Shown here in pieces: positions 3 to 26,381 of a DNA stretch of 28,680 bases; position 1 is the first letter of the stretch; each line of letters opens with the position of its first letter. Source of the stretch: a virus; IMG/VR virus record IMGVR_UViG_3300021474_000025, positions 1 through 28,680 of that record; one strand, given 5' to 3'. The notes under the pieces are model-generated. The model worked only from the letters and a program-made list of their open reading frames with translations. It was not told the origin of the DNA and did not search any database. The position numbers and the translations under genes were made by a program.

Positions 3-1259
3 ATCCTTGAGCCTCTGGTCGTCACCCTCGACGACTACCTGCTCTCGGGGCACCGTCGCCTCGCTGGGGCCAAGATCGCTGGACTGGAGACCGTCCCGGT
101 TCGCCGGAAACAGATTCGCCGCCTCGACGACATTGACCGGTTCGTGAGGCTGCTGCGGGAACACAACCGCCAGCGTCCCAAGAGTCGTGACGAGCGTTTA
201 CGCGAGGAGTTGATCGCGGTCAGCCCCGAAGAGGCCTATCAGAGCCTGATCGCCCACCGGCAACTGCGGTCGGAGGTGGTGATCGCCGAGCTGGAGCTCG
301 ACCCAGTCAAGAGACGCCGACAGATCAGCGACGCAAAGCAGTCGTTCCTTGATGCCATCCTTCGCGTGCTGGATGACCGGCGCGCCTTCTGGCCACTGTC
401 AGTTCGCCAGATCCATTATGCGCTCCTGAATTTTCCTCCGCTGAAGCATGCGAGTAAGCCCACCAGCATCTATGACAACACGATCCAATCATACAAGTCG
501 CTGGACGAGCTGACCGTCCGCGCCAGACTTCTCGACATCATTCCGCCCGAAGCTATCGACGACGAGACGCGGCCAGTCGTGCTCTACGACGTCCACCGGG
601 AAGCAGCCCCATTCATTGCTCAGCAGTTCGATCGTTTTCTCCGGGGTTATTGGCGCGACCTGATGCAGTCGCAGCCGAACCATGTCGAAATCGTCGTCGA
701 GAAAAACACCGTCGCCAGCATCATCAAAGACGTCGCGACGGAGTATTGCATTCCAATGACCAGTGGGCGGGGCTTCTGCTCCCTGCCTCCCCGCATGGCG
801 ATGCGCGATCGGTTTCGCAAGAGCGGGAAGCAGCGGCTCGTCGTGCTGATGGCTACCGACTTCGACCCGGCCGGCGAGCAAATCGCCCGATCGTTTTGCC
901 GGTCAATGCGGGACGAGATGCATATAGACATCGTTCCCGTCAAGGTGGCACTGACGCAGGCTCAGGCCCTGGAGCACAAGCTGCCCGAGAACTCGATCGA
1001 AGCCAAGGAGACTACGAAAACTAAAAAGGGCCCAGGCTATGCGAAGTTCGTGCACGATTACGGTGCCGGGCACAGCGTCTACGAACTCGAAGCCCTCGAG
1101 CCACTGACGCTCCGCGGGATCATGCGGGACGCGATCGATGCCGTGATTGACCGGGAAGCATTCAACAGGGAACTGGACGAAGAAAAGCAGGACGCCGCGC
1201 ACCTGGAGCGTGTTCGCCTGAGGGTAATCGACGCCATGCGTGATGCGATTGCGGAATGA
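3..1259 (+). CDS. ParB-domain / Spo11-TopoVI-A-like fusion protein (5' end cut by window)
   Basis: The frame is open from the window edge, so the true start lies upstream; the GTG at 144 is internal. Before it comes a ParB-type N-terminal motif (SGHRRLAGAKIAGLETVPV), the fold of plasmid and phage ParB proteins. From about residue 80 (counting GTG 144 as 1) the protein looks like the A subunit of type IIB topoisomerases and Spo11: a winged-helix motif SVRQIHYALLN whose Tyr92 sits where the catalytic tyrosine lies in RDIFY/RELYY motifs, then a Toprim core with Glu186 (IVVEKNT) and Asp239/Asp241 (ATDFDPAGEQIA), and YELEAL near 313. All expected catalytic residues are present. No B-subunit ATPase is visible here. 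Family knowledge suggests DNA cleavage or resolution in replication, or a Mini-A-like role; actual activity is inference. It heads the early gene group, before an HNH nuclease and a primase-polymerase. Confidence 0.75.
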   Translation: MLEPLVVTLDDYLLSGHRRLAGAKIAGLETVPVRRKQIRRLDDIDRFVRLLREHNRQRPKSRDERLREELIAVSPEEAYQSLIAHRQLRSEVVIAELELDPVKRRRQISDAKQSFLDAILRVLDDRRAFWPLSVRQIHYALLNFPPLKHASKPTSIYDNTIQSYKSLDELTVRARLLDIIPPEAIDDETRPVVLYDVHREAAPFIAQQFDRFLRGYWRDLMQSQPNHVEIVVEKNTVASIIKDVATEYCIPMTSGRGFCSLPPRMAMRDRFRKSGKQRLVVLMATDFDPAGEQIARSFCRSMRDEMHIDIVPVKVALTQAQALEHKLPENSIEAKETTKTKKGPGYAKFVHDYGAGHSVYELEALEPLTLRGIMRDAIDAVIDREAFNRELDEEKQDAAHLERVRLRVIDAMRDAIAE

Positions 1260-1307: not shown

Positions 1308-1442
1308 TCTCTTGTGTGTCGATGATTTCAGCCAATTTGGTTTGGGGGGCAAGGAGCGGGCGGAAGCCCGAAGCGTTAGTTGAAAGTTAAGGGTTACGCG
1401 CGTCGGACTCGACCCGACGCTGGCTGGTGCAAGTCGGTCGAG

Positions 1443-1943
1443 ATGCGGGTGACATGGTTCAGGACGGCGCTGTCCGCCGGCAGATTTCCAGACGCGTCGT
1501 TCACGCTCACCGGCGCGATCACTGTCGTCGAGCCTCAGGTTTTCTATGACGGCCTGATCGCCGACATTGAGGCAGGACCCGATGGCATCCGAGCTGCCGT
1601 CCTCGACGATGACTTACGTGCAGTCCAAGCCGTCTGCGGGCCTCTCAGGATTGATCTGAGGCCGCCATCGTCGCGTAGGGGCTATGGCGACGGCTGGCCG
1701 GCACTACGAGAGGCACACGCGAAGGCCAATCCTTGGTGCGCGGTGTGTCTCGCTGAAGGCGCTGAGGTGCCGCTCTGGGAGGTCGATCACATCCGGCCGT
1801 TCCTGAGCCTCAGCGACCCGCTCAGGCTCGACGCTGGCAATCTCCAGTCGCTATGCCGACCGCACCATGCCGCCAAAAGCGCGGAGGCCACGCGCGCGGG
1901 CCAAGCCCCCATTTGGAAACAACCCCGGGAGGACGCCGCGTGA
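1443..1943 (+). CDS. HNH endonuclease
   Basis: A 166-residue protein whose C-terminal half carries a complete HNH/zinc-finger nuclease signature: NPWCAVC (Cys99, Cys102), EVDHI (His116), NLQSLC (Asn133, Cys138) and PHHAAKS (His141, His142). The YGDGWPALREAHAKANP lead-in is typical of small phage HNH proteins that nick or cut DNA and often assist terminase. The N-terminal 80 residues are not recognised. I chose ATG 1443; the frame is open to a TTG at 1380 directly after an in-frame stop, and that start has no ribosome site. No strong Shine-Dalgarno is seen for either. It overlaps the next gene by GTGA, so the two are probably translated together. It sits far from the terminase, so a replication or restriction role is equally possible. 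Confidence 0.8.
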   Translation: MRVTWFRTALSAGRFPDASFTLTGAITVVEPQVFYDGLIADIEAGPDGIRAAVLDDDLRAVQAVCGPLRIDLRPPSSRRGYGDGWPALREAHAKANPWCAVCLAEGAEVPLWEVDHIRPFLSLSDPLRLDAGNLQSLCRPHHAAKSAEATRAGQAPIWKQPREDAA

Positions 1944-2236: not shown

Positions 2237-2275
2237 GTGTTTCAACTGGTGAGCAACCAGCAGAAAGGGAAACGA

Positions 2276-3751
2276 GTGAGCACTGCTATTTTAGCAACGC
2301 AAGACGGCGAAGCAAACGGTTCTATCCTTCTCGGCAACGAAAAATCTCATGCCATTCCGCCGTACAACCTGGAAGCATACAAGGGCGCTGTCGAGCTGCT
2401 CGAATGCGGCTATCCGGTCAATCTGGTGTACGGCGTCGAGTTCCATAAATGCGGTTGCATCAAGAAGGCGAAATGCGGGACGCCCGGTAAACACCCGGTC
2501 GGCGGATGGCAGTCGTTCACCAGGGATCCTGACATGGTCAGGGGCTGGTTCGCGGGCGCAAAGCGCTGCAACGTTGGACTTCCAACAGGTGTCGAGTCCG
2601 GCATCTTTACCATCGACGTCGACGGACGACACGGTGGATACGACTCCCTTAGCAAGCTGATCAAGATGGCCGGTCGCCCCGAGACGCTGTGGGGCAAATC
2701 TGGCAACGGCCTGCACCTGCATTTTGAGCACCCCGGTGGACACGTTCCTTCCAGAATCGGGGTGATGCGCGGGATTGATATTCGGGGTGACGACGCCGGA
2801 GTTGTCGCTCCCGGGTCGCGACACGAATCTGGCAAGCTGTACTCGTGGGGCGTTTCGCCCAGACGATGCAGACCGATCAAATTGCCAGACTCGTGGCTGT
2901 TTTTGTTGTCTCCATCTCCGCAGCGTTACGCAGAGAACAAAACTGCTGTCGCTGCGGACCAGAGAGGCAGTGTTACACAGAGAGTTCAGAGTGCGCATGA
3001 GGATCCAGAGCATTCAGGAGATTCACTTGGCCTCCCCCGCGAAAAATCGCGGGAGGAGGAGCCGGCCGAAAAGAGAATCCAGAAGGCGATCGACTCGACG
3101 ATTCCCGACGGTCCCGGTCTGCGGCACCGGTTCGTCTTCGAGCTGATCAGGGCGCTGAAGGCAATCCCTGAGATTGCTTCGGCCGACCCGTTTGACCTGG
3201 AAGACATCGTTCGGGAGTGGCACGCCAAGGCTATTCACCGGATTGGCACGAAGGCGTTCGAAGAAACTTGGTTCGATTTTGTTGACGGCTGGCCCCGGTG
3301 CCGATGGGCGAAAGGAGAAGGTCCAGTGAGCGATGCACTAAACCGCGCGCGAGCGGCCGAAGTTCCCGAATTTGCGAAACGGTACGAGCAGCCCGGCCTT
3401 CGCCTATTGGTCAAGCTGTGCCGGGAGCTCCACGCGGTCGCCGGGAGGGATGCCGATGGCAATGACAGACCGTTTTTCTTGGCTGGCAGCACAGCCGCCG
3501 AATCCGTGAATTGTGACCGTCAAACAGCATGGCGCTGGCTGCGGTTGCTCGTGGCAGAGGGCGTTCTCGACCAAGTGCAGGTCGGCAGCCGCAAGGGCAG
3601 GCAGGCCTCGGAATACAAATACAACCCTGATGGCCGCGGGAACCGGACCAAACGATGCAGCCGCCGCGGAGGATTGTCTGACACGGTGGCCCCGCTCATC
3701 GCGAAGTGGAAGCGGCAATTGGATTCGCGATGGACCGGAAATGCGACGTGA
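2276..3751 (+). CDS. Bifunctional DNA primase/polymerase (prim-pol)
   Basis: A 491-residue replication protein. The N-terminal half fits the bifunctional prim-pol family of phages and plasmids: a cysteine cluster (HKCGCIKKAKCGTPGKHP, residues 58-74), the NVGLPTG segment, the metal-binding DVD (Asp114, Asp116), SGNGLHLHF (142-150), and GIDIRGDDAGVVAPGS (166-181). It should make primers and extend them at the phage origin. A charged linker follows (about 220-265), then a helical region and a C-terminal winged-helix-like segment (NCDRQTAWRWLRLLVAEGVL) that probably binds DNA. GTG 2276 is preferred over GTG 2237 because AAAGGGA lies 5 bases before it. No helicase gene is seen nearby; it may lie upstream of the window. 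High confidence in family, moderate in the exact start. Confidence 0.85.
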   Translation: MSTAILATQDGEANGSILLGNEKSHAIPPYNLEAYKGAVELLECGYPVNLVYGVEFHKCGCIKKAKCGTPGKHPVGGWQSFTRDPDMVRGWFAGAKRCNVGLPTGVESGIFTIDVDGRHGGYDSLSKLIKMAGRPETLWGKSGNGLHLHFEHPGGHVPSRIGVMRGIDIRGDDAGVVAPGSRHESGKLYSWGVSPRRCRPIKLPDSWLFLLSPSPQRYAENKTAVAADQRGSVTQRVQSAHEDPEHSGDSLGLPREKSREEEPAEKRIQKAIDSTIPDGPGLRHRFVFELIRALKAIPEIASADPFDLEDIVREWHAKAIHRIGTKAFEETWFDFVDGWPRCRWAKGEGPVSDALNRARAAEVPEFAKRYEQPGLRLLVKLCRELHAVAGRDADGNDRPFFLAGSTAAESVNCDRQTAWRWLRLLVAEGVLDQVQVGSRKGRQASEYKYNPDGRGNRTKRCSRRGGLSDTVAPLIAKWKRQLDSRWTGNAT

Positions 3752-4199: not shown

Positions 4200-4344
4200 G
4201 CTACCGTGTAAACCGAGGCCGGCATGACAGGCATTCGGTGAACAGTGGCGCGGCTCGCTCGACCGCAGCGATGAGCCAGGTTTACCGGTCTGGCTGGATC
4301 ACGTCGTTGCGGACCAACCGGCGACGGGGTGGGGCTTGACCGAG
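4200..4344 (+). other. Leader with good ribosome site, 5-codon frame and open frame into the next gene
   Basis: ATG 4224 has GAGG five bases upstream but reads only MTGIR before TGA 4239. One base later the frame of the downstream gene is open from 4228 and reads protein-like sequence (EQWRGSLDRSDEPG, then PVWLDHVVADQPATGWGL) into ATG 4345 without any ATG, GTG or TTG until 4336. A single-base indel, real or from assembly, would join the two into one longer gene. Confidence 0.4.
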
Positions 4345-4767
4345 ATGACCGTCAACGAGAATCATCCGTGGCAAACTCTCGCCACTCCGTCGCCGTTTTC
4401 CCACCTCAGCGCCGATTGCGGGACCCTGTTGCAGCTCGCATGCCGGCTCGAACGTGTCGCTGCCGAACTACGTCAGATCGACGAGTCCCTGAAAGGCCTG
4501 CCTGGAACGCCGCTGTCTTCGCTGGACGGCTTTGACCGTCTCTCGAAGCGGGTTCGCAAGGCGCTTGAAGCACGCGGAATTGAGAACGCCACGCAGTTGT
4601 CGATGGCGACCCTCGATCAGATTTTGCAGTACCGAGGTTTCGGCTCCGCCGCGATCGTCGAGCTGGAAAACTGGATGAAGTCTCACGGTCTGAGGTGCAG
4701 CGAGCATCCCCCCTATTACCTCAACAGCAGCCATTTCGCTTCTCTGCGGGGAGCTGTTGCAGGTTGA
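4345..4767 (+). CDS. Protein with RNA polymerase alpha-CTD-like domain
   Basis: A 140-residue protein whose second half (about residues 60-117) aligns without gaps to the C-terminal domain of the RNA polymerase alpha subunit: LSKRVRKALEARGI, then ATLDQILQYRGFG, then VELENWMKSHGL. By that alignment Arg69 matches E. coli RpoA Arg265 and Gly100 matches Gly296, both DNA-contacting, while the Asn268, Lys298 and Ser299 positions are changed. The first half is helical (LLQLACRLERVAAELRQID) and has no RpoA N-terminal assembly domain. It could bind AT-rich promoter DNA or a host activator and so bias transcription, or simply be a helix-hairpin-helix DNA-binding protein. The start is uncertain: TTG 4336 is possible, and the frame may continue upstream past an indel. 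It ends 11 bases from the convergent gene. Confidence 0.65.
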   Translation: MTVNENHPWQTLATPSPFSHLSADCGTLLQLACRLERVAAELRQIDESLKGLPGTPLSSLDGFDRLSKRVRKALEARGIENATQLSMATLDQILQYRGFGSAAIVELENWMKSHGLRCSEHPPYYLNSSHFASLRGAVAG

Positions 4768-4778
4768 ACGGTCCAACG

Positions 4779-6428
4779 CTATCGGTTCGGCACGTCCGCG
4801 CCTTCCGCCCACTCATTGCCCGGCTTGCTGGCAGTGAATGTCACGCACCGCTGTGGGTCAGGCTCTTCGAAGGCGAACGGCAACGGCCCGATGAACGCCG
4901 ATCCGAATCCCGCGCCAACTCTTCGGGACATGACGCTGACGAGCGTTTTCACTTCCGCCTCCGTCTGAACGGGGGACGGCTTGACGCAGTCCCTGGGCGG
5001 ATTCTTGGTGTCAACATTGTCGCTCGGCAACGCCAACAAATCGCCAGTGCCCCAAGCTGGGCTGACGAAGTCTACGGGACGCGCGCCGCGGCGTTCGAGG
5101 TACCATTGGAACCCCCAATGCCCCTGGAACCAGAGTGTTTGCCCTGCGGCATTGTCGCCGACCTTGGTGGCCAGATCGCGCCAAGAATTCGCCCACGCGT
5201 AATCGGCCTGGGCGACCGCCAACGACAAGACGAACGATGGAACGAGCGGGATCCATACGCGCCGAACACCTGCGGCCTCCAGGCGTCGAGCGACCAGAAC
5301 GCCAACGGCCGGAGCCATCGGGAGCACGCTGCGAACGTTGTTCCCCCAATTCAGGTAAGACGCGAACACGAACGTGCCGACGATCCAGAGCGAGAAGATC
5401 ACGAGGAGCGGTTGCTTACGCGCGTCGCTCATGCGGGGAACGGCCAACCAGAGCACCAAGACGCCAGCACTGACGAAAAGCCCAAGCTGGAGCGCCAGTG
5501 CCCACGTGGCAAGTCTGTGATAGCTGATCGCGCCGAGTTCGGGGCGCCAAGCGAGTATCAACGTCCAGACGGCGACAGCACCCAGGGCCAGGGTGGCCGC
5601 AACTGTGACGCGTTTCGAGAAGATCGCGGGAGCGAAGAACACGACCGGCAAGAACGATCCTCCCGCGAAGCTCAGACCGACAAGAGTCTTTGCCCAGAGT
5701 GGGACGCCACGGTCAACATCGGTCGCGACGCTGGAAGCGTGCAGCACGTGCACGGTGCCGTACAGTTTCCAGGTCCAAAACTCGAAAGCCGCGAAGATGA
5801 AGGCCGGCACCAAGAGCCAGAGGGCTGCGGCATACTGACGCGGGCGAGCGACGGCAAACGTGCAGGCCGCGAGCAGTGGGAACAGGCTCAGCGCGAAGTA
5901 TTTCGTGAGCACCGCGAGAGCTACGAAGAGCGATGCTGCCGCAAGCCGGGGCCAATTCGAAAGTCGCAGGCCATCGATCCAAAGAGCCACCGCCCAAGCG
6001 AAGAAACAGGTCATCAACGTGTCGCACATGATGCTCGTGCTCGACGCGAGGAATGCGGGCGTCGCCAGTGCGACCGCCGCGGCAGTGACCTGGTTGGAAG
6101 TGACCGACCCGGCCAGCCTCCATGTCGCGAGCGTGGCACCGATCGCCGGCAAGATGAACGCCAGGTGCATCGCGACCTCGGATGTTCCGAAGAAGCACGC
6201 GACGGCGGCGATGTAATAGCTCGCGGCCGGCGGATTGTGGGTAGCGGTCCACATGGGCTGCCATGTGCCGTACCAGTTTGTCTGGAAGCCGTACGGGTCG
6301 AGCGGGTGTCGCTGGATCTGTTCGGTGGCCCACAAAAAGAGCGGATCGTCGAGTGCGAAGGCTTTGAACACGAACGGCAACAGGCACGCCGCCGTGACGA
6401 CGCAGACAACAGCGACCGGCTTACGCAT
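4779..6428 (-). CDS. GT39/ArnT-like membrane glycosyltransferase
   Basis: A 549-residue integral membrane protein, the only gene on the minus strand. The first membrane segment (residues 4-24) is followed at once by an Asp pair (ALDDPLFLW, Asp27/Asp28), the place of the catalytic acidic motif of GT-C enzymes, and then by HNPPAASYY. Around ten further hydrophobic segments and a soluble C-terminal domain from about 430 follow. The family (PMT/ArnT/GT39) moves sugars from polyprenyl-phosphate carriers to lipids or proteins on the outer side of the membrane. ATG 6428 is used; a TTG at 6467 would add 13 residues. Placement alone and backwards inside a phage late/early junction fits a lysogenic-conversion gene altering the host surface. 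It could also be an acquired host gene; the precise acceptor is unknown. Confidence 0.75.
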   Translation of the reverse strand: MRKPVAVVCVVTAACLLPFVFKAFALDDPLFLWATEQIQRHPLDPYGFQTNWYGTWQPMWTATHNPPAASYYIAAVACFFGTSEVAMHLAFILPAIGATLATWRLAGSVTSNQVTAAAVALATPAFLASSTSIMCDTLMTCFFAWAVALWIDGLRLSNWPRLAAASLFVALAVLTKYFALSLFPLLAACTFAVARPRQYAAALWLLVPAFIFAAFEFWTWKLYGTVHVLHASSVATDVDRGVPLWAKTLVGLSFAGGSFLPVVFFAPAIFSKRVTVAATLALGAVAVWTLILAWRPELGAISYHRLATWALALQLGLFVSAGVLVLWLAVPRMSDARKQPLLVIFSLWIVGTFVFASYLNWGNNVRSVLPMAPAVGVLVARRLEAAGVRRVWIPLVPSFVLSLAVAQADYAWANSWRDLATKVGDNAAGQTLWFQGHWGFQWYLERRGARPVDFVSPAWGTGDLLALPSDNVDTKNPPRDCVKPSPVQTEAEVKTLVSVMSRRVGAGFGSAFIGPLPFAFEEPDPQRCVTFTASKPGNEWAEGADVPNR

Positions 6429-6490
6429 TGGATGGTGCCCGGAGCGCGTGAAGCACGGTTGTGCCAAGCGCTGGCTGGATCATAAGCGAT

Positions 6491-11342: not shown

Positions 11343-11609
11343 ATGGAACGCGACGACGAGGTGCCCAGCAAAATGGATGTGATGACCGGCCGAGGATTGC
11401 CGCGACACCGGAGCCATCAGCAGGAACGGGATCCTAGGTCAGAGGGAGAGGAGGAGCGGAACAGGCTGGAGCGGGCCGAAGCCGACGCAGCCAAGGCCAA
11501 GCTGATCCCGCTGTACTGCGAACGGATCGAGCAGGGATTGGCGATATTCGACGGACGGCCATTGACGCCAAACCAAGTTGCGCAGGTTAACCATGAAAGC
11601 CACGGTTGA
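11343..11609 (+). CDS. Charged helical small protein
   Basis: An 88-residue protein that changes character sharply from the fibre genes: very rich in Glu, Arg and Lys, with a likely coiled coil (EEERNRLERAEADAAKAKLIPLYCERIEQGLAIFDG). ATG 11343 follows a GGGAACGTGAAGA stretch that could serve as a ribosome site. It overlaps the start of the HNH-like gene by 17 bases. No family is recognised; a regulatory or chaperone role is possible. Confidence 0.5.
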   Translation: MERDDEVPSKMDVMTGRGLPRHRSHQQERDPRSEGEEERNRLERAEADAAKAKLIPLYCERIEQGLAIFDGRPLTPNQVAQVNHESHG

Positions 11610-12108
11610 ATATCGCCCAGTGCCAGGACACCTGAACTACCGCGTGGGAGATGACGGCAGCGTTTGGAGTCGCGCCCGTGGCGAATGGAAGCAGCTGTCG
11701 CCATACGGAAGCGCGCAGCCGACGGTTACGCTCTCGGGTCGCGTGAAAATGTCGGTTGCCCGAATCGTGCTGCTCGCGTTTGTCGGCGAATGTCCAAAAG
11801 GCATGAGAGGACGCAACATCAATCGGAACACCGACGACTGCCGGCTAAGCAACCTGAAGTATCTGTCACGCAAGGAATCGCAGCGGGATGTTCCGCCACC
11901 TCCGCCCATGCCAGGTGAGGACAACCCGCAACATAAGCTGACAAGCGACAACGTGATGGAGGTTCTCGCCCTCATTGACCAGGGAATCCCGCAGCGCGCC
12001 GTCGCTCGACGTTTCGACGTATCGAAAAATTGCGTCTACCAGATCATCCATGGGATCAAATGGGGCTGGCTCACTGGACGCAAGTTGGAACAGAAGGCTG
12101 TGGCATGA
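11593..12108 (+). CDS. NUMOD4/HNH-like homing endonuclease relative with HTH, catalytic His replaced
   Basis: A 171-residue protein. Residues 6-100 follow the NUMOD4-HNH layout (YRPVPGHLNYRVGDDGSVWS, then VARIVLLAFVG, then a TDDCRLSNLKYLSRKES end). Where active members have HxN or HxD the sequence reads RNIN (Asn75), so the general-base His is apparently replaced by Asn. After a poly-Pro linker (101-107) comes a helix-turn-helix (EDNPQHKLTSDNVMEVLALI, QRAVARRFDVSKNCVYQIIHG) like those in NUMOD/resolvase-type DNA-binding domains. It may be a homing endonuclease that lost cleavage and kept DNA binding, perhaps becoming a repressor; that is inference. ATG 11593 is used, with AGG only upstream. 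Being free-standing between modules fits a mobile intruder gene. Confidence 0.65.
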   Translation: MKATVEYRPVPGHLNYRVGDDGSVWSRARGEWKQLSPYGSAQPTVTLSGRVKMSVARIVLLAFVGECPKGMRGRNINRNTDDCRLSNLKYLSRKESQRDVPPPPPMPGEDNPQHKLTSDNVMEVLALIDQGIPQRAVARRFDVSKNCVYQIIHGIKWGWLTGRKLEQKAVA

Positions 12109-12655: not shown

Positions 12656-12897
12656 TGACCGGAGAACCCTCGGTCGAGTATCACGTCGACGACCGCAAGT
12701 TACTTGAGGGACTGAAGGCGGCCGAGGCGTCGCTGCAACGGTTCGGCCAAGACTGGCGCGAGCGTCACGCCCAGATCGTCCGCGAGCGGATCGCAGCCGG
12801 GTCGTTGGGCATCTCGATCGCGCTGCTGCACGTTCCCCTTCCGATGCCCGGCCGGATGGCGCGCACCATGAATTTTGGGACGCATGGCCACCGCTGA
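12652..12897 (+). CDS. Small protein preceding terminase; possible TerS-like or accessory
   Basis: An 81-residue protein starting with a long charged helix (VDDRKLLEGLKAAEASLQRFGQDWRERHAQIVRERIA). ATG 12652 overlaps the previous stop, with GGGGTGAG upstream, and the gene overlaps the large terminase start by 14 bases. This is where the small terminase subunit lies in lambda-like phages, but no helix-turn-helix DNA-binding motif is visible, so the identity as TerS is only a positional guess. Confidence 0.5.
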   Translation: MMTGEPSVEYHVDDRKLLEGLKAAEASLQRFGQDWRERHAQIVRERIAAGSLGISIALLHVPLPMPGRMARTMNFGTHGHR

Positions 12898-14938
12898 GCT
12901 GTCGCGCGCCGAGTATCAGAACGAATACCACAAGGCGCGTCGGTCCCAACGCCGGGAGATCGGGCTTCCAGATCCCTACACCGCCGAAGAACTGGCGCTC
13001 CGCGCCCGGTGTCGCGACAGCCTGAAGTTCCACCTGCAAATCTGCTACCCCGAAGCGTTCTACCTGCCGTTTTCGCACGAGCAAGACGAAGAGATCGCAA
13101 CGACCCAACGGATCATTGTTGAGGGCGGCCTCTCGGCTCGTGCCGCGCCCCGCGGCGACGGGAAGACTACGCGTGCGGCCCGCGCCGCTCTCTGGGCCAT
13201 CCTGGAAGCCTACCGCGAATTCGTGACGATCGTCGGTGCGACCGAAAAGCTGGGCGAGAAGCTGCTCAAGCTGATCAAGTTCGAGATGGAAAACAACCCG
13301 CTGCTCTGGCGGCTCTACCGTCGGGAGTTGTGGGGGATCGCCCAACTCCGGAACGATGCCAAGCGGTGCATCGGACAACTCGCAGGGGGTGAGCCGACCC
13401 GGATCACGTGGGCCGTCGATCAGGTCGTCATGCCGACCGTTCCCGGCAGCCTGTGCTCAGGCTCAATCCTGACCGTCTCGGGCATCACCGGGGCGATCCG
13501 GGGTCAGATTCACGAGAAACCCGGGGGCCGTGTCGTGCGGCCGTCCCTCGTGCTCTTGGATGACCCACAAACGCGAGAGTCCGCCAAGTCGCCGATGCAG
13601 TCAAAAGACCGCGCAGCCACCATCAACGGGGACGTCCTGGGCCTAGCTGGACCCGGTGTCGCGATTGCCGCGGTGATGCTTTGCACGGTCATTCAGCGCG
13701 GCGACCTGTCAGACACGTTCCTGGACCAGAGTAAGCACCCGGAATGGCAGGGCCACCGGTCACCGATGGTGTACGTTTTCCCCAAGAATGAGGCGCTTTG
13801 GGAGGAGTATCGCGAGAAGCGGGCCGACTCCTACGCCACGCGAAAGAATTGCAGCCTTGCGACTGAGTTCTATCAGGCCAACCGGGAGGCGATGGACGAG
13901 GGGACTGAAGTCTCATGGCCCGAGCGCTTCGACACAGGCGAAGCGAGCGCCCTACAGCACGCGATGAACCTAAAGTTTCGGAACGAGAGCGCTTTCTGGG
14001 GCGAGTATCAGAATGCGCCGCAAGATGAACCGTCGGGCGACCTGGTGATTCTCAGCGCCGACGAGATTATCAAAAAGCTGAGCGGGTTTGCTCAGGGAGT
14101 TGTGCCGGTCAACTCGGACGTCCTGACGGCGCACATCGACATTCACGACGAGGTCCTTTACTACGCCGTCGGGGCTTTCGCGCCCGGCTTCAGCGGTCAG
14201 ATCATTGACCGGGGCACGTTTCCGCCGCAGCCGACCAGCTATTTCACGCTGCGGAAGGCCCCGCGCCGGCTCTCGCACCTTTACACGGGCGTGGCACTCG
14301 AAGCGGCGATCGTCAAAGGCCTCGGCGAGCTGATCGACCAGATTGTCGGCAGGGAGTGGAAGCGCGAGAACGGCACGGTCGCCCGCCTTAGGTTTGTCAT
14401 CATCGACTGCGGCTATAAACCGGAACAGGTCGAGCTGGCCTGCCGCATCTCGAAATATGCCCCAATCCTCATGCCTTCCCGCGGCATCGGCGTCGGCGCG
14501 ACCGATATGCCATTTGCCGAACGCGACAAATACAAGAAGGCCGCCGCAAGGGGCGACAACTGGTACATCTCGGCATCGAATGCGAGCGGCGTCGCGCGGA
14601 TTTGGTTTGACTCCAACTATTGGAAGACGTTTCTGCACGGTCGCCTTTGCACGCCACTCGGCGCGTCTGGGTGCCTCTCGCTGTTCAACGCTAAGCCGGC
14701 GGCACTCGAATGTTTTGCCGAACATCTGACTGCGGAGTTCCCCCGCGAGGTGCTGGCCCAGGGCCGACGCGTCGTGCAATGGGAACTGAGAACAGGTCGA
14801 GACAATCACTGGCTCGACAACACGATTGGTTGTCACGTCGCCGCGTCGCGACTTGGCATGGCACTAGAAGGTCAAGCGCGCGTGCCAGTCACGCGGGCAC
14901 AATCCCGGCCACGAAACCGGGTGAGCTATATCCAATGA
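12884..14938 (+). CDS. Large terminase subunit, GpA type
   Basis: A 684-residue packaging motor and nuclease of the lambda gpA family. The ATPase domain has a Walker A variant APRGDGKTT (residues 88-96), preceded by a P-loop-adaptor-like segment, and Walker B SLVLLDDPQT (221-230). The nuclease half begins around 410 with TAHIDIHDEVLYYAVGAF (Asp419, Asp422), then FVIIDCGYKPEQV (near 506), and a late DNHWLDN motif, giving the acidic cluster expected of an RNase H-like nuclease. It translocates DNA into proheads through the portal and cuts concatemers. ATG 12884 is preferred to TTG 12875 since GGGA lies just before it. The gene overlaps both neighbours (14 bases upstream, ATGA downstream). Length is close to the usual 600-700 residues of the family. 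Confidence 0.93.
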   Translation: MATAELSRAEYQNEYHKARRSQRREIGLPDPYTAEELALRARCRDSLKFHLQICYPEAFYLPFSHEQDEEIATTQRIIVEGGLSARAAPRGDGKTTRAARAALWAILEAYREFVTIVGATEKLGEKLLKLIKFEMENNPLLWRLYRRELWGIAQLRNDAKRCIGQLAGGEPTRITWAVDQVVMPTVPGSLCSGSILTVSGITGAIRGQIHEKPGGRVVRPSLVLLDDPQTRESAKSPMQSKDRAATINGDVLGLAGPGVAIAAVMLCTVIQRGDLSDTFLDQSKHPEWQGHRSPMVYVFPKNEALWEEYREKRADSYATRKNCSLATEFYQANREAMDEGTEVSWPERFDTGEASALQHAMNLKFRNESAFWGEYQNAPQDEPSGDLVILSADEIIKKLSGFAQGVVPVNSDVLTAHIDIHDEVLYYAVGAFAPGFSGQIIDRGTFPPQPTSYFTLRKAPRRLSHLYTGVALEAAIVKGLGELIDQIVGREWKRENGTVARLRFVIIDCGYKPEQVELACRISKYAPILMPSRGIGVGATDMPFAERDKYKKAAARGDNWYISASNASGVARIWFDSNYWKTFLHGRLCTPLGASGCLSLFNAKPAALECFAEHLTAEFPREVLAQGRRVVQWELRTGRDNHWLDNTIGCHVAASRLGMALEGQARVPVTRAQSRPRNRVSYIQ

Positions 14939-16904: not shown

Positions 16905-17138
16905 ATGGCAAACAACGCTGTGGCGATTGCCCAGATTCAGGCCCTGCTAAACACGGGCGCGACGCAGGTCATCGTCGACGGACAGACCGTCACGATCAGC
17001 CCGGCATCGCTGCGCAAGCGGCTCCGTCTGCTGATGGCCTCCGACGACACGAATGCCGGGCGACGTCCGCTCGTGTCGACGGTCAACCTTGGTGGCTATT
17101 GGCGCCCCGACTTCTGTGGGGGCTGTCCGACGCCGTGA
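16905..17138 (+). CDS. gpW-like head-tail joining protein
   Basis: A 77-residue protein whose body (helix, QVIVDGQTVTIS hairpin, then PASLRKRLRLLMAS helix and an RRP tail) matches the layout of lambda gpW: helix, two-strand hairpin around xVxxDGRxVxF, helix. gpW closes the packaged head at the portal and joins the tail. The gene lies between terminase and portal, exactly as in lambda (A-W-B), and is slightly longer than the usual 68 residues. ATG 16905 has AAGGA almost touching it, so a TTG at 16881 remains possible. The stop overlaps the portal start by GTGA. Confidence 0.65.
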   Translation: MANNAVAIAQIQALLNTGATQVIVDGQTVTISPASLRKRLRLLMASDDTNAGRRPLVSTVNLGGYWRPDFCGGCPTP

Positions 17139-18661
17139 AGTTGAAGCCCCCCGCTTGGATTGAAAACCGGCTCTCGCAATTCTTCGGCGAGCATGGCCAA
17201 TCGCGTCTCGGTTATGACGCGGTGAAGTTCGACAACAAGCGCCGCCCGGCGACCGGTCGACTGCTTTGGGAAGAGCGCGAGCTGATGGAAAATCAGCGGC
17301 GCTTGCTCGTCTCCGACACCCGCGACCTTCAGCGCAATTTCACCATCGCCGCTTGGGCGATTCGCAAACACCTCGACTTCGTCGCGTCGTTCAATTTCAA
17401 CTGCCGGACCCCCGACAAGGGCCTCAACGTCGAGATCGAAGCGCTGGTCGAGGAATGGTCCCGCAAAGAAAACTTTGACGCCTGCGCGCGCCACGACCGC
17501 CAGCGGTTCATTCGCTTGCTCGAGGCGCGTCGCTACGTCGACGGCGATATCGGCGTCTTGAAGATCATCGACGGCACGGTGCAGGCGATCGAGGGCGACC
17601 GCATCCGCAATCCGTTCGGAGCGATGGACCTCGTGCCCGACCCGGGCCTCTTGGGCGTCAACCTGAAAGGGTTGATCGAGGGCGCGATTCTTGATGACCG
17701 GGGCCGCACGACCGGCTACGTCGTCAACAAGCGGACGCTCTACGGCGGCTTCATCCCGGAGCGTGTCGTTTCCTCGGCCGACCTGCTCTTGCACGGGTGC
17801 TTCGATAGGTTCGACCAAGTTCGCGGGGTGTCGCCGATCGCCGCCGGCCTCAATCAGTTCAAGGACGTTTACGAAAACTTCGACTTCGCGCTGGCGAAAA
17901 TGAAGATTGCCCAGCTGTTCGGCATGGTGCTGACGCGGGATTCGGATGACGCGCCCGCACCGACATATCCCGAATTCACCGACCCCAGCGTCACTGACGA
18001 CAGCAGCCAGAACCCGGCGAAAACGGCTGCGGAGACCAATAAGGCCCGCTACGAAATCAACTTCGGCCGCGGCCCGGTCATTCTCGACATGGACCCCGGC
18101 GACGATGCGAAGTTCCTGGAAAACAAGACCCCATCGACGGAGTTCAAAGAGTTTACTCAGACGATTATCCAGGTCGCCTTGAAGGCGCTCGACATCCCGT
18201 TCTCGTTCTACGACGAGGCCTACACGAATTTCTTCGGCTCACGCTCTGCGCTGATGCTCTACCTCAAGAGCGCCGAGTTCAAGCAGCACGAGGTGCGCGA
18301 GGTCTTGCGGCATCTCACGGTTTGGAAGCTGATTCTCTGGATCGCCAGCGGCCGCTTGATTTTGCCGCGCGGAATGAGCGTCGCGGACATCAAGTTTCAC
18401 TGGATTCCGTCGGGCGTGCCCTGGTGGAACCCGCAACAGGAAATCACCGCCGAGTTGTCGGCGATCGCCGGCACCTTACAGGACTTCGACGAGATTCGAC
18501 GCGAGCACTTTGGCGACAGCTGGTATGACGTGATCGACCGCCAGGCGGAGCAGCGAGCCTACGCGAAGTCCAAGGGCGTTCCCATCTCCCTGCCGACGAC
18601 ACTGGCCCCACAAGCGGCCGATGACGCGGCACTTCACGAAGTTCCCGGAGCCGCAGCATGA
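17135..18661 (+). CDS. Portal protein, lambda gpB-like family
   Basis: A 508-residue portal protein, forming the dodecameric ring through which DNA passes and to which the neck binds. Family signs: RDLQRNFTIAAWAIRKHLDF near 65-85 (the N-x-x-x-x-x-A-I-R segment after the wing), DGDIGVLKI, EGDRIRNP, a helical stem with VRGVSPIAAGLNQFKDVYEN near 228-250, and GIPFSFYDEAYTNFFGSRSA-like core near 350-370. The C-terminus has an Ala/Pro tail. GTG 17135 overlaps the gpW-like stop (GTGA) with a G-rich stretch upstream; the frame is open earlier, but this start keeps the coupling. It ends in ATGA with the protease gene. Confidence 0.9.
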   Translation: MKLKPPAWIENRLSQFFGEHGQSRLGYDAVKFDNKRRPATGRLLWEERELMENQRRLLVSDTRDLQRNFTIAAWAIRKHLDFVASFNFNCRTPDKGLNVEIEALVEEWSRKENFDACARHDRQRFIRLLEARRYVDGDIGVLKIIDGTVQAIEGDRIRNPFGAMDLVPDPGLLGVNLKGLIEGAILDDRGRTTGYVVNKRTLYGGFIPERVVSSADLLLHGCFDRFDQVRGVSPIAAGLNQFKDVYENFDFALAKMKIAQLFGMVLTRDSDDAPAPTYPEFTDPSVTDDSSQNPAKTAAETNKARYEINFGRGPVILDMDPGDDAKFLENKTPSTEFKEFTQTIIQVALKALDIPFSFYDEAYTNFFGSRSALMLYLKSAEFKQHEVREVLRHLTVWKLILWIASGRLILPRGMSVADIKFHWIPSGVPWWNPQQEITAELSAIAGTLQDFDEIRREHFGDSWYDVIDRQAEQRAYAKSKGVPISLPTTLAPQAADDAALHEVPGAAA

Positions 18662-20058: not shown

Positions 20059-20988
20059 ATGGCGAACGCCTATCCGACGCTGTTTGACATTGCGGTTCAG
20101 AACGGGGCCGACCCCCTTGCTGGTCTGATCGACGAAACGATGAAGGCAACGCCGGAGGTTCGCTTGGGCGCTGCCCGAACGATTCCCGGCATTAACTACC
20201 GTGTGAATGTTCGCACGGCGCTCCCGACGATGGCCTTTCGTGCCGCCAACCAGGGCACCGCGTCGACCAAGTCGACTTACGAGAACCGGTTGACCGAATG
20301 TTACAACCTGAATCCGATCTGGCAGTGCGACAAGGCGGTTGCCGATTCGCACATCGATGGAGCGGCAGCCTACATCGCGCTGGAAGGGTCGGCGATGACG
20401 CTGTCGGCGTTCCAGTGGGCGTCGTCGCAGTTTTACTACGGTAACGCTGTCGGCACGGGCAACGACGTCAACGGCTTCCCTGGGCTGATCCAGGGCTACA
20501 ACACCGCGAACATCATCGACGCCGGCGGCACGACCGCGAACACCGGGTCGTCTGTCTGGATGGTGAAGTTCGGCCCGACCTACTGCCAGTGGGTGGTGGG
20601 GCAGAACGGCAACATGAGCCTGACGGACGTCGTCGAGCAGATCCTATTCGACACGAATAGTCTGCCGTATCCCGGCTACGTCCAAAGCTTGATGGTGCGG
20701 CTCGGTCTGCAATTCGGCAATACGAAAACGATCGTCCGTATCAAAAAGCTGACGGCCGACAACCTCTGCACGCTGACCGACAAGATGATTTCGGACGCGC
20801 TCGCGCTGTTCCCGGCGGGTTACGAGCCGGACGTCATGTTTATGACGCGGCGGTCCCGCTCTCAGCTTCGCGACAGCCGCACAGCGACGAATCCGACCGG
20901 CCAGCCGGCACCGATTCCCGAAGAGGCCTTCGGCGTTCCGATCGCCGTCACGGACGGCATCAGCAACACGGAATCCCTCACTCTCTAA
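20059..20988 (+). CDS. Major capsid protein
   Basis: A 309-residue protein right after the protease/scaffold gene, as expected for the shell protein. It opens with NAYPTLFDIAVQNGADPLAGLIDE and TIPGINYRVNVRTALPTMAF, then DKAVADSHIDGAAAYIALEG and a mid-domain NGFPGLIQ (an HK97-like P-domain feature). It ends with PEEAFGVPIAVTDGISNTES, the usual position of the last A-domain strand with a DGI motif. The layout fits HK97-fold capsid proteins of the gp10/BcepB1A-like type (established family knowledge; exact subtype not certain). No obvious cleaved N-terminal delta domain is present, which is consistent with a separate scaffold. AAAAGG before ATG 20059 sits in a hairpin, and a terminator-like hairpin follows the gene. 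Confidence 0.85.
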   Translation: MANAYPTLFDIAVQNGADPLAGLIDETMKATPEVRLGAARTIPGINYRVNVRTALPTMAFRAANQGTASTKSTYENRLTECYNLNPIWQCDKAVADSHIDGAAAYIALEGSAMTLSAFQWASSQFYYGNAVGTGNDVNGFPGLIQGYNTANIIDAGGTTANTGSSVWMVKFGPTYCQWVVGQNGNMSLTDVVEQILFDTNSLPYPGYVQSLMVRLGLQFGNTKTIVRIKKLTADNLCTLTDKMISDALALFPAGYEPDVMFMTRRSRSQLRDSRTATNPTGQPAPIPEEAFGVPIAVTDGISNTESLTL

Positions 20989-24377: not shown

Positions 24378-26381
24378 ATGGCTGGCAACTCAGGTGCAGT
24401 TCGAGCCGGGCGCGCCTTCGTTGAGCTCTTCACAGACAAATCCAAGCTGGCGAAGGGCCTCAAGGACGCTGGGCAAGACCTCAAGAGCTGGGGATCCAGC
24501 GTCTCCGCTATCGGCGCGAAGATCTTCGCTGCCGGCCTGGGTTTGAAGGCCGCTCTCTCTGGTGCCGCAGCCATCTTCGCAGAAACGGGCGCGGGGCTCG
24601 CCCACATGAGCGAGCGCACGGGCGTCAGTGTCGAAGCGCTCTCTCAGCTTTCCTACGCCGCGGACCAAACCGGCGTCGACATGGAAGGCTTTGAGAAGTC
24701 GCTCGGCAAAATGCAGCAGAACCTCGGGCACGCGATGATCGGCGACGAGGCCGGCGCTAAAGGGTTCGACCGTCTCGGGCTCTCGATTCAGAAACTCGCC
24801 AAAGAATCACCCGAGCAGCAGCTGATGGAAGTGGCGGAAGCGATTCGCCGCATTCCTGATCCCGCGGAACGCGCTGCGGCGGCGACCGACGTCTTTGGCA
24901 AGGCTGGCAAACAGCTCTTGCCGTTCCTGATGCAGGGCAAAGCCGGCATTACGGGATTGATGAAAGAGGCCGATCGTCTCGGGCTCACCATGTCTGCCGG
25001 CGACGCAGCCGCAGCCGAAGAACTTGAACGCTCAATGAAAGGCGTCTGGGCCACTCTCAAAGGCGCGGCCGTTGCGATCGGATCGGCACTCGCGCCGGCC
25101 ATGACTGAGTTGGTCACGAAGATCCTCAACACAGTCGGAACGGTCGTCAACTGGATTAAGGAAAACAAAGGGCTAATCGTCACCATCTCGACAATCGCGA
25201 CCGGAATTGTCGCTGCCGGCGCGGCCATGATGGCTGTGGGGTACGTGATCAGTGCAGTTGGTGGCATCGTCGCTGGGCTGGGAACTGTTGTCGGCACCAT
25301 TGGCGCGGTGATTGGTTCAGTGTTCACAGGCGCCGTCGGGGTGATTGTTTTCCTGCTCTCGCCGATCGGACTGGTGATCGCCGCGATTGTCGCACTCGGT
25401 GCCTACGTCGTTTACAGCTCAGGAATCATCGGGCAAGCGCTCTCCGGGCTGTCCGACGTGTTCGGGCAGTTGAGCGGTGATTTCAAGATCGCCTTTGACG
25501 CGATCAAGGCCGCGCTCTCTGCCGGCGACTTCGCGGCTGCGGCCAAGGTGCTCTGGGCTGCGCTTAAGCTCGAATGGCTCCGGGGCATTAACTACATCAA
25601 CTCGCTGTGGGTCAGCGCAAAAACGTTCGTGCTGGAAATCTGGTCAAGCGCGGGCTTCCAGATCGCGGAGTTCTTCGACACGGCATTTTCGCACGTCGAA
25701 GAGGCGTGGGAGACCGTCACGAGCGCGATGGGCGACGGATTCCGGGCCGTCGTCTCGACGCTGTCCAACATTTGGAACAAGTTTATCGGGTTCTTGGCAT
25801 CGATGGGGGCGCGCATCGTCGATGCGTTCTCACCGCTGATCGAACTCGTTGGCGGCGACGTCGACGCGCTCAAGAAGTCTCTGCTGGGCGTCAAGGACGC
25901 GAGCGACCAGCACGTTCGGTCGAACGACCAGGCGTATTACGCCGACAAGGCCCAGCGACAGCAATCGCGGCAGGATCGCACCGCGCAGATTCAACAAGAG
26001 CGCGAGCAGTCGCACGCGAACTATCAAAAGGCCTTCGACGAGCAGATGGCTCAGTACGAAAAGGCCAAGCAAGACGCGCTCAACAAGGGAACCGACGAGG
26101 CTGAGCAGAATCTCGCTACAGCAAAGGCCGCTCTCGTCAGCGCGGCAGCCGCAGCAAAGAGCGCCGATCACAAAACCGGCACGGCAAAAACGGGCAAGGT
26201 TCCCAGCACCGACGATATCGAGATGCAGGGCAAGACGTCGGTCATGAGCACGTTCAGCCCCTTCCAGGCGGCGATGCTTGGGACCGGCCGCACCGACGAC
26301 TTTTTGCATCAGATCGCCGGCAACACGCGCGATACAAACGAGTCGGTCAAGAAGATCAAGACCGCCGGGATGAAGCCATGA
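24378..26381 (+). CDS. Tail tape measure protein
   Basis: A 667-residue protein of the usual tape measure design. Residues 1-80 have an amphipathic start and hydrophobic segment; SERTGVSVEALSQLSYAADQ (79-97) and SPEQQLMEVAEAIRRIPDP (144-162) are typical of the TP901-type core. Hydrophobic membrane-like segments run from about 266 to 346. The C-terminal part (about 520-610) is a charged coiled coil (RQQSRQDRTAQIQQEREQSH). It sets tail length, which by comparison with known tape measures would be about 100 nm (inference), and may help DNA entry through the membrane. ATG 24378 follows the T-like stop by 3 bases. It overlaps the next gene by ATGA. No lytic peptidase domain is visible. Confidence 0.9.
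   Translation: MAGNSGAVRAGRAFVELFTDKSKLAKGLKDAGQDLKSWGSSVSAIGAKIFAAGLGLKAALSGAAAIFAETGAGLAHMSERTGVSVEALSQLSYAADQTGVDMEGFEKSLGKMQQNLGHAMIGDEAGAKGFDRLGLSIQKLAKESPEQQLMEVAEAIRRIPDPAERAAAATDVFGKAGKQLLPFLMQGKAGITGLMKEADRLGLTMSAGDAAAAEELERSMKGVWATLKGAAVAIGSALAPAMTELVTKILNTVGTVVNWIKENKGLIVTISTIATGIVAAGAAMMAVGYVISAVGGIVAGLGTVVGTIGAVIGSVFTGAVGVIVFLLSPIGLVIAAIVALGAYVVYSSGIIGQALSGLSDVFGQLSGDFKIAFDAIKAALSAGDFAAAAKVLWAALKLEWLRGINYINSLWVSAKTFVLEIWSSAGFQIAEFFDTAFSHVEEAWETVTSAMGDGFRAVVSTLSNIWNKFIGFLASMGARIVDAFSPLIELVGGDVDALKKSLLGVKDASDQHVRSNDQAYYADKAQRQQSRQDRTAQIQQEREQSHANYQKAFDEQMAQYEKAKQDALNKGTDEAEQNLATAKAALVSAAAAAKSADHKTGTAKTGKVPSTDDIEMQGKTSVMSTFSPFQAAMLGTGRTDDFLHQIAGNTRDTNESVKKIKTAGMKP

Follow-up and report, generated by a model that had tools for sequence, protein, structure and literature searches.

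A ParB-type domain fused to a Mini-A core of the Top6A/Spo11 type on a tailed-phage contig and on other elements

Cores of the Spo11/Top6A type need control over the time of cutting, and the partners described for them are GHKL ATPases or presumed derivatives or replacements of these. Topoisomerase VIII is a type IIB relative from mobile elements, in which a single chain can comprise both the A part and the nucleotide-binding part. Mini-A, a smaller relative, was reportedly named by Takahashi et al. in 2020, together with a discriminating C-terminal motif. ParB dimerises on NTP binding and closes a clamp on DNA. Mini-A has been described as a viral, truncated homologue of Top6A (PMC7614492, PMC8185306, PMC11302465). 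The ParB fold is described as a switch worked by NTP that, on mobile elements, is frequently joined to a second enzyme; which nucleotide it uses is not predictable from sequence (Kaljevic et al. 2025, PMC12704722). Partners named in the main text of that survey are HNH, methyltransferase, DUF and others; topoisomerase, Toprim and Spo11 are not mentioned there.

The locus described here is a gene of the window, the whole stretch of 28,680 bases analysed (virus record IMGVR_UViG_3300021474_000025), which starts at base 1 of the record. The ParB_N–Mini-A fusion gene (3' part, 3..1259, plus strand) is in frame from base 3, with 418 codons plus a stop at 1257-1259. Because the frame is open at the left edge and the record begins at base 1, the true start lies off the contig; about 60-100 N-terminal residues are missing in comparison with full-length relatives. 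The 418-residue product is confirmed to consist of the end of a ParB_N domain, a linker and a complete Mini-A core (winged helix and Toprim), as the original prediction had it. Chance cannot account for this architecture, the matches being far beyond chance. As in the ParB-CTPase-fold fusions of the main text of the 2025 survey (PMC12704722), PF02195 is joined to another enzyme on a mobile element. As in Mini-A (PHROG 6247), the core has a winged helix and Toprim with invariant R-xxx-Y, E and DxD, and the gene belongs to phages and integrated elements without a fused or adjacent B subunit; unlike the fusion, the other Mini-A proteins compared lack a ParB domain. The same five catalytic residues occur in the same order in Topo VI A/Spo11, which has a GHKL partner where the fusion has ParB instead. 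The nucleotide-binding part of topoisomerase VIII is a GHKL ATPase, and that of the fusion has the ParB fold. Mini-A itself is already known; no description of a ParB–Mini-A fusion was found in the literature searched, to which the 2020 naming paper and the supplements of the ParB survey did not belong.

The fusion gene is followed on the plus strand by genes for an HNH endonuclease (1380..1943; PF01844, E 2e-5; phrog_144, E 8e-17) and a Prim-Pol type primase of the replication module (2237..3751; PF09250, E 1e-28). Further plus-strand genes encode the terminase large subunit (12875..14938; PF20454, phrog_38), portal protein (17099..18661; PF05136, phrog_21), major capsid protein of the GP7 family (20059..20988; PF20911) and tape measure protein (24378..26381; phrog_8462, E 3e-41). 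A major tail protein gene is also present. The contig is assigned to a tailed phage on account of its terminase, portal, GP7-type capsid, tape-measure and major tail protein genes. Four other frames of the window are recorded: a small protein at 4336-4767 (plus) with a match to the RNA polymerase alpha C-terminal domain below threshold (17.7 bits, cut-off 23.8); a membrane glycosyltransferase-like frame at 4779-6467 (minus, opposite to the phage genes; PMT_2, E 1.5e-9); a frame overlapping it at 4695-6485 (plus), probably spurious; and a second HNH endonuclease-like gene at 11578-12108 (plus), homing-endonuclease-like, with a C-terminal HTH.

The core matches PHROG 6247 ('DNA topoisomerase') over residues 129-404 (E 2.6e-32). 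Pfam gives Toprim below threshold only, so a Pfam-based survey would share this blind spot. The winged-helix motif R135-x-x-x-Y139 lies at 405..419 (plus), with the codon of the predicted DNA-cleaving tyrosine Y139 at 417-419 (plus); Toprim Glu233 (VEKNTV) lies at 699..701 (plus), Asp286 and Asp288 (DFDPAG) at 858..866 (plus). These are in register with R114/Y118, VEKDTV and DNDPWG of Top6A. All five residues are invariant in the alignment with 10 phage Mini-A proteins and across a 78-row alignment (4 fused proteins, 74 Mini-A). The full catalytic set claimed earlier is therefore present; the numbering used then began at the GTG at base 144, so that Y92, E186, D239 and D241 are Y139, E233, D286 and D288 of the 418-residue frame. 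Two features set the fused clade apart: an insert of its own after the tyrosine (NDPPLxHASKP), and another sequence in place of PPNPAKxTDSR, a stretch frequent among Mini-A proteins.

Against a profile of six Top6A proteins (two planctomycetes, four archaea), the 78-row alignment brings the R-xxx-Y motif, the glutamate of VEK and the two aspartates into register, with a score of 27.3 compared with a maximum of 25.5 in 60 column shuffles; hhalign itself gives a low probability (4.5%). A profile built from two Top6A sequences was too thin for a convincing alignment; the one from six sequences did better. The model of the window core (pLDDT 91) has M. mazei Top6A as its best PDB match, in agreement with the TopoVI-A fold foreseen, at a probability of 0.99 and E 5e-3 but with a weak TM of 0.28. 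A nuclease of C. glutamicum is also among the fold matches. The window protein has 94 residues from Y to E and 53 from E to D. The catalytic tyrosine of M. jannaschii Top6A is taken to be Y103. Counted from there to E197 and D249 (PMC11746154), the spacing in that protein is 94 + 52; agreement extends to yeast Spo11 (Y135, E233, D288, D290; PMC11746154). In Top6A/Spo11 each active site is a hybrid, with the tyrosine from one subunit and the Mg pocket from its partner (PMC11746154). The distance between tyrosine and acidic residues in a monomer model is therefore no valid test. The core is of the Top6A/Spo11 type, at an overall sequence similarity near the detection limit. Two archaeal Top6A genes (L240, L242) carry a long in-frame intein-like insert directly after the DADPWG...SGS stretch.

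Mini-A, which the original prediction noted as known from mobile elements, is widespread: tblastn finds 56 phage and 22 plasmid records, all with less than 80% of the query covered, and places in viral and genome contigs number in the hundreds. Scanning viral contigs with the window protein alone gave no match, the patterns being too specific; DNA-pattern matches for TDFDPAGE were rejected as unrelated phage proteins only.

The ParB N-terminal (NTP-binding) domain is represented by its C-terminal part at 3..227 (plus), as placed by ParB PHROGs, by ParB_N in full-length relatives and by alignment. ParB-like PHROGs match residues 1-58 of the window protein (E 2.6e-4), a weak match on its own because the contig end cuts the domain. 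Of the seven fusions from genomes, five (L181, L197, L198, L229, L230) exceed the Pfam cut-off for ParB_N (PF02195), and L199 and L228 stay below it. A full-length model of L204 (pLDDT 85) matches the folds of ParB, Noc and KorB (E to 4e-6) and of M. mazei Top6A (E 8.5e-3). The P-motif GHRR (Box II) lies at 48..59 (plus) and is G[HN]RR in 11 of 11 fused proteins. NRQR stands at the place of Box III (canonical ENxQR) at 165..176 (plus); N-x-x-R is likewise kept in all 11, and the canonical glutamate is not (xNRQR), so hydrolysis may be lost. Both halves are conserved as one unit: dN/dS of the pair L199/L207 is 0.13 and equal in both halves, and other pairs with unsaturated synonymous sites give 0.16–0.30, values that are rough since synonymous divergence is high throughout.

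The preferred reading, given about an even chance, is a DNA-cleaving enzyme of the Spo11/Mini-A kind that works as a dimer, is switched by nucleotide through its ParB-type domain and takes part in replication of the phage genome. Two subunits would pair, and each tyrosine would attack DNA in the Mg pocket of the partner. The ParB domain, situated at the N-terminus, the end where topoisomerase VIII has its GHKL ATPase part, would bind NTP and act as the switch for DNA capture or cleavage; the enzyme may help to replicate, recombine or process the phage genome. Alternatively, ParB_N may be a passive DNA-binding or structural addition, independent of nucleotide, to an enzyme that works like other Mini-A without NTP regulation. 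In most phages Mini-A has no ParB domain, the Box III glutamate is lost, and a CTP-independent ParB-like protein is on record (PMC12260392); the retention of the G[HN]RR P-motif and of NxxR in every fused protein argues against such a passive role, which is judged distinctly unlikely.

Ten further distinct fused genes, 29–54% identical to the window protein, are found in viral contigs, Planctomycetota and a second phylum. A Phycisphaerae bacterium genome holds a full-length relative (54% identity over residues 1–417); with three more fusions in its phylum, 4 of 392 sampled genomes are positive. The second phylum, that of L166 (Akkermansia) and probably Verrucomicrobiota, has fusions in 3 of 388 genomes; one of these, L228, is truncated on its 3' side by the contig end. 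Four further viral contigs carry the fusion, two of them with identical gene copies. The 11 distinct fused proteins form one clade (support 100/99). No match reaching the ParB domain at E <= 1e-20 is found in the phyla of L155 (Acidobacteriia, 247 genomes), L093 (Caulobacteraceae, 299 genomes) or L137 (Nannocystis, 189 genomes). Long upstream frames of L022, L138, L089 and L227 looked fusion-like at first and were read as out-of-gene sequence. The split form is not found, stand-alone ParB_N near Mini-A amounting to 6 ORFs in 5 of 171 loci; L231, from a genome of the acidobacterial phylum, has a ParB-less Mini-A with no ParB neighbour. On two archaeal contigs (L170:4748-6529 and L171) the Mini-A frame has an N-terminal extension of about 300 residues, not ParB-like by eye, possibly another fusion or a read-through upstream frame. 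The database annotation of the Mini-A in phage record BKO1-3 lists a 'Chromosome partitioning' protein as its structural match; fused sequences are thus probably already present, unremarked, in public databases.

The absence of a B subunit from the window, noted in the original prediction, is borne out. Neither the window nor the fusion-bearing viral contigs, which are fragments, contain PF09239 (Topo VI B), and no GHKL ATPase or B-type domain is found in the window ORF or elsewhere in the window. Five of the seven host genomes, two of them with a main contig of 7.7–7.8 Mb, lack Topo VI B and A; the other two have them, and there the fusion may possibly borrow the host B subunit. A more specific proposal, tentative and rather doubtful, is a type IIB topoisomerase-like machine in which a ParB clamp operated by CTP or another NTP replaces the GHKL gate, that is, a CTP-gated topoisomerase. 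Nucleotide-driven closure of ParB would then capture DNA and license a Spo11-type double-strand break or strand passage. A conserved ParB fusion suggests a second, independent solution to the control of such cores in viruses. It would link two active fields, that of NTP switches with the ParB fold and that of cleavage by Spo11/Mini-A, and would give a functional handle on Mini-A in phages; a single chain of about 470 residues would be a direct system in which to study how nucleotide might govern a core of the Spo11 type.

Prim-Pol or other primase genes lie near the fusion in the window, L197, L199, L204, L206 and L207, phage-type helicase genes in L206 and L207, integrase genes in L197 and L200, and terminase genes in L199 and L228; in L205 and L206 the fusion directly precedes the terminase gene. 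The position next to terminase would suit a ParB domain that targets the Spo11-like nuclease to a parS-like phage site, as a site-directed nuclease or resolvase acting, for example, near packaging. Such targeting was proposed in the original prediction, and an extra N-terminal HTH before the ParB domain in 2 of 11 fused proteins (L199, by Pfam HTH models; L207, by alignment) agrees with it. No HTH besides the catalytic winged helix is detected in the other nine, however, and Pfam recognises no parS-reading part of ParB in the fused proteins; site targeting is considered unlikely. The two genes with the extra HTH (L199:8816-10423 and L207:9776-11335) adjoin a separate ParB–DNA methyltransferase fusion.

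An attack enzyme, making double-strand breaks in host or competitor DNA for nucleotide supply, anti-defence or superinfection exclusion, has a precedent in the Top6A-like MksG nuclease of C. glutamicum, which acts against plasmids (PMC10123090), and a C. glutamicum nuclease appears among the fold matches of the core. Such a role is very unlikely, as the fusion sits in replication and packaging modules and no defence genes are consistently beside it. A ParABS-type partition protein of a phage-plasmid, which the ParB domain alone might suggest, is rejected as barely conceivable: no ParA-type ATPase is found in five viral records, nor, in seven host genomes, on the contig of the fusion or less than about 150 kb away from it, and no parS-binding domain is detected. 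The replication-module setting is consistent with the preferred reading of a switched cleavage enzyme.

The fusion is essentially the sole gene common to the window and the other elements, the exception being an HNH match to L199; it therefore moves as a unit between unrelated elements. L199 and L207 have several genes in common, and other pairs are connected by a few matches between primases or integrases. The two most divergent fusions, L229 and L230, are directly followed on the 3' side by a gene of no assigned function (L229:5713-6399 and L230:4043-4828; 37% mutual identity), a possible functional partner.
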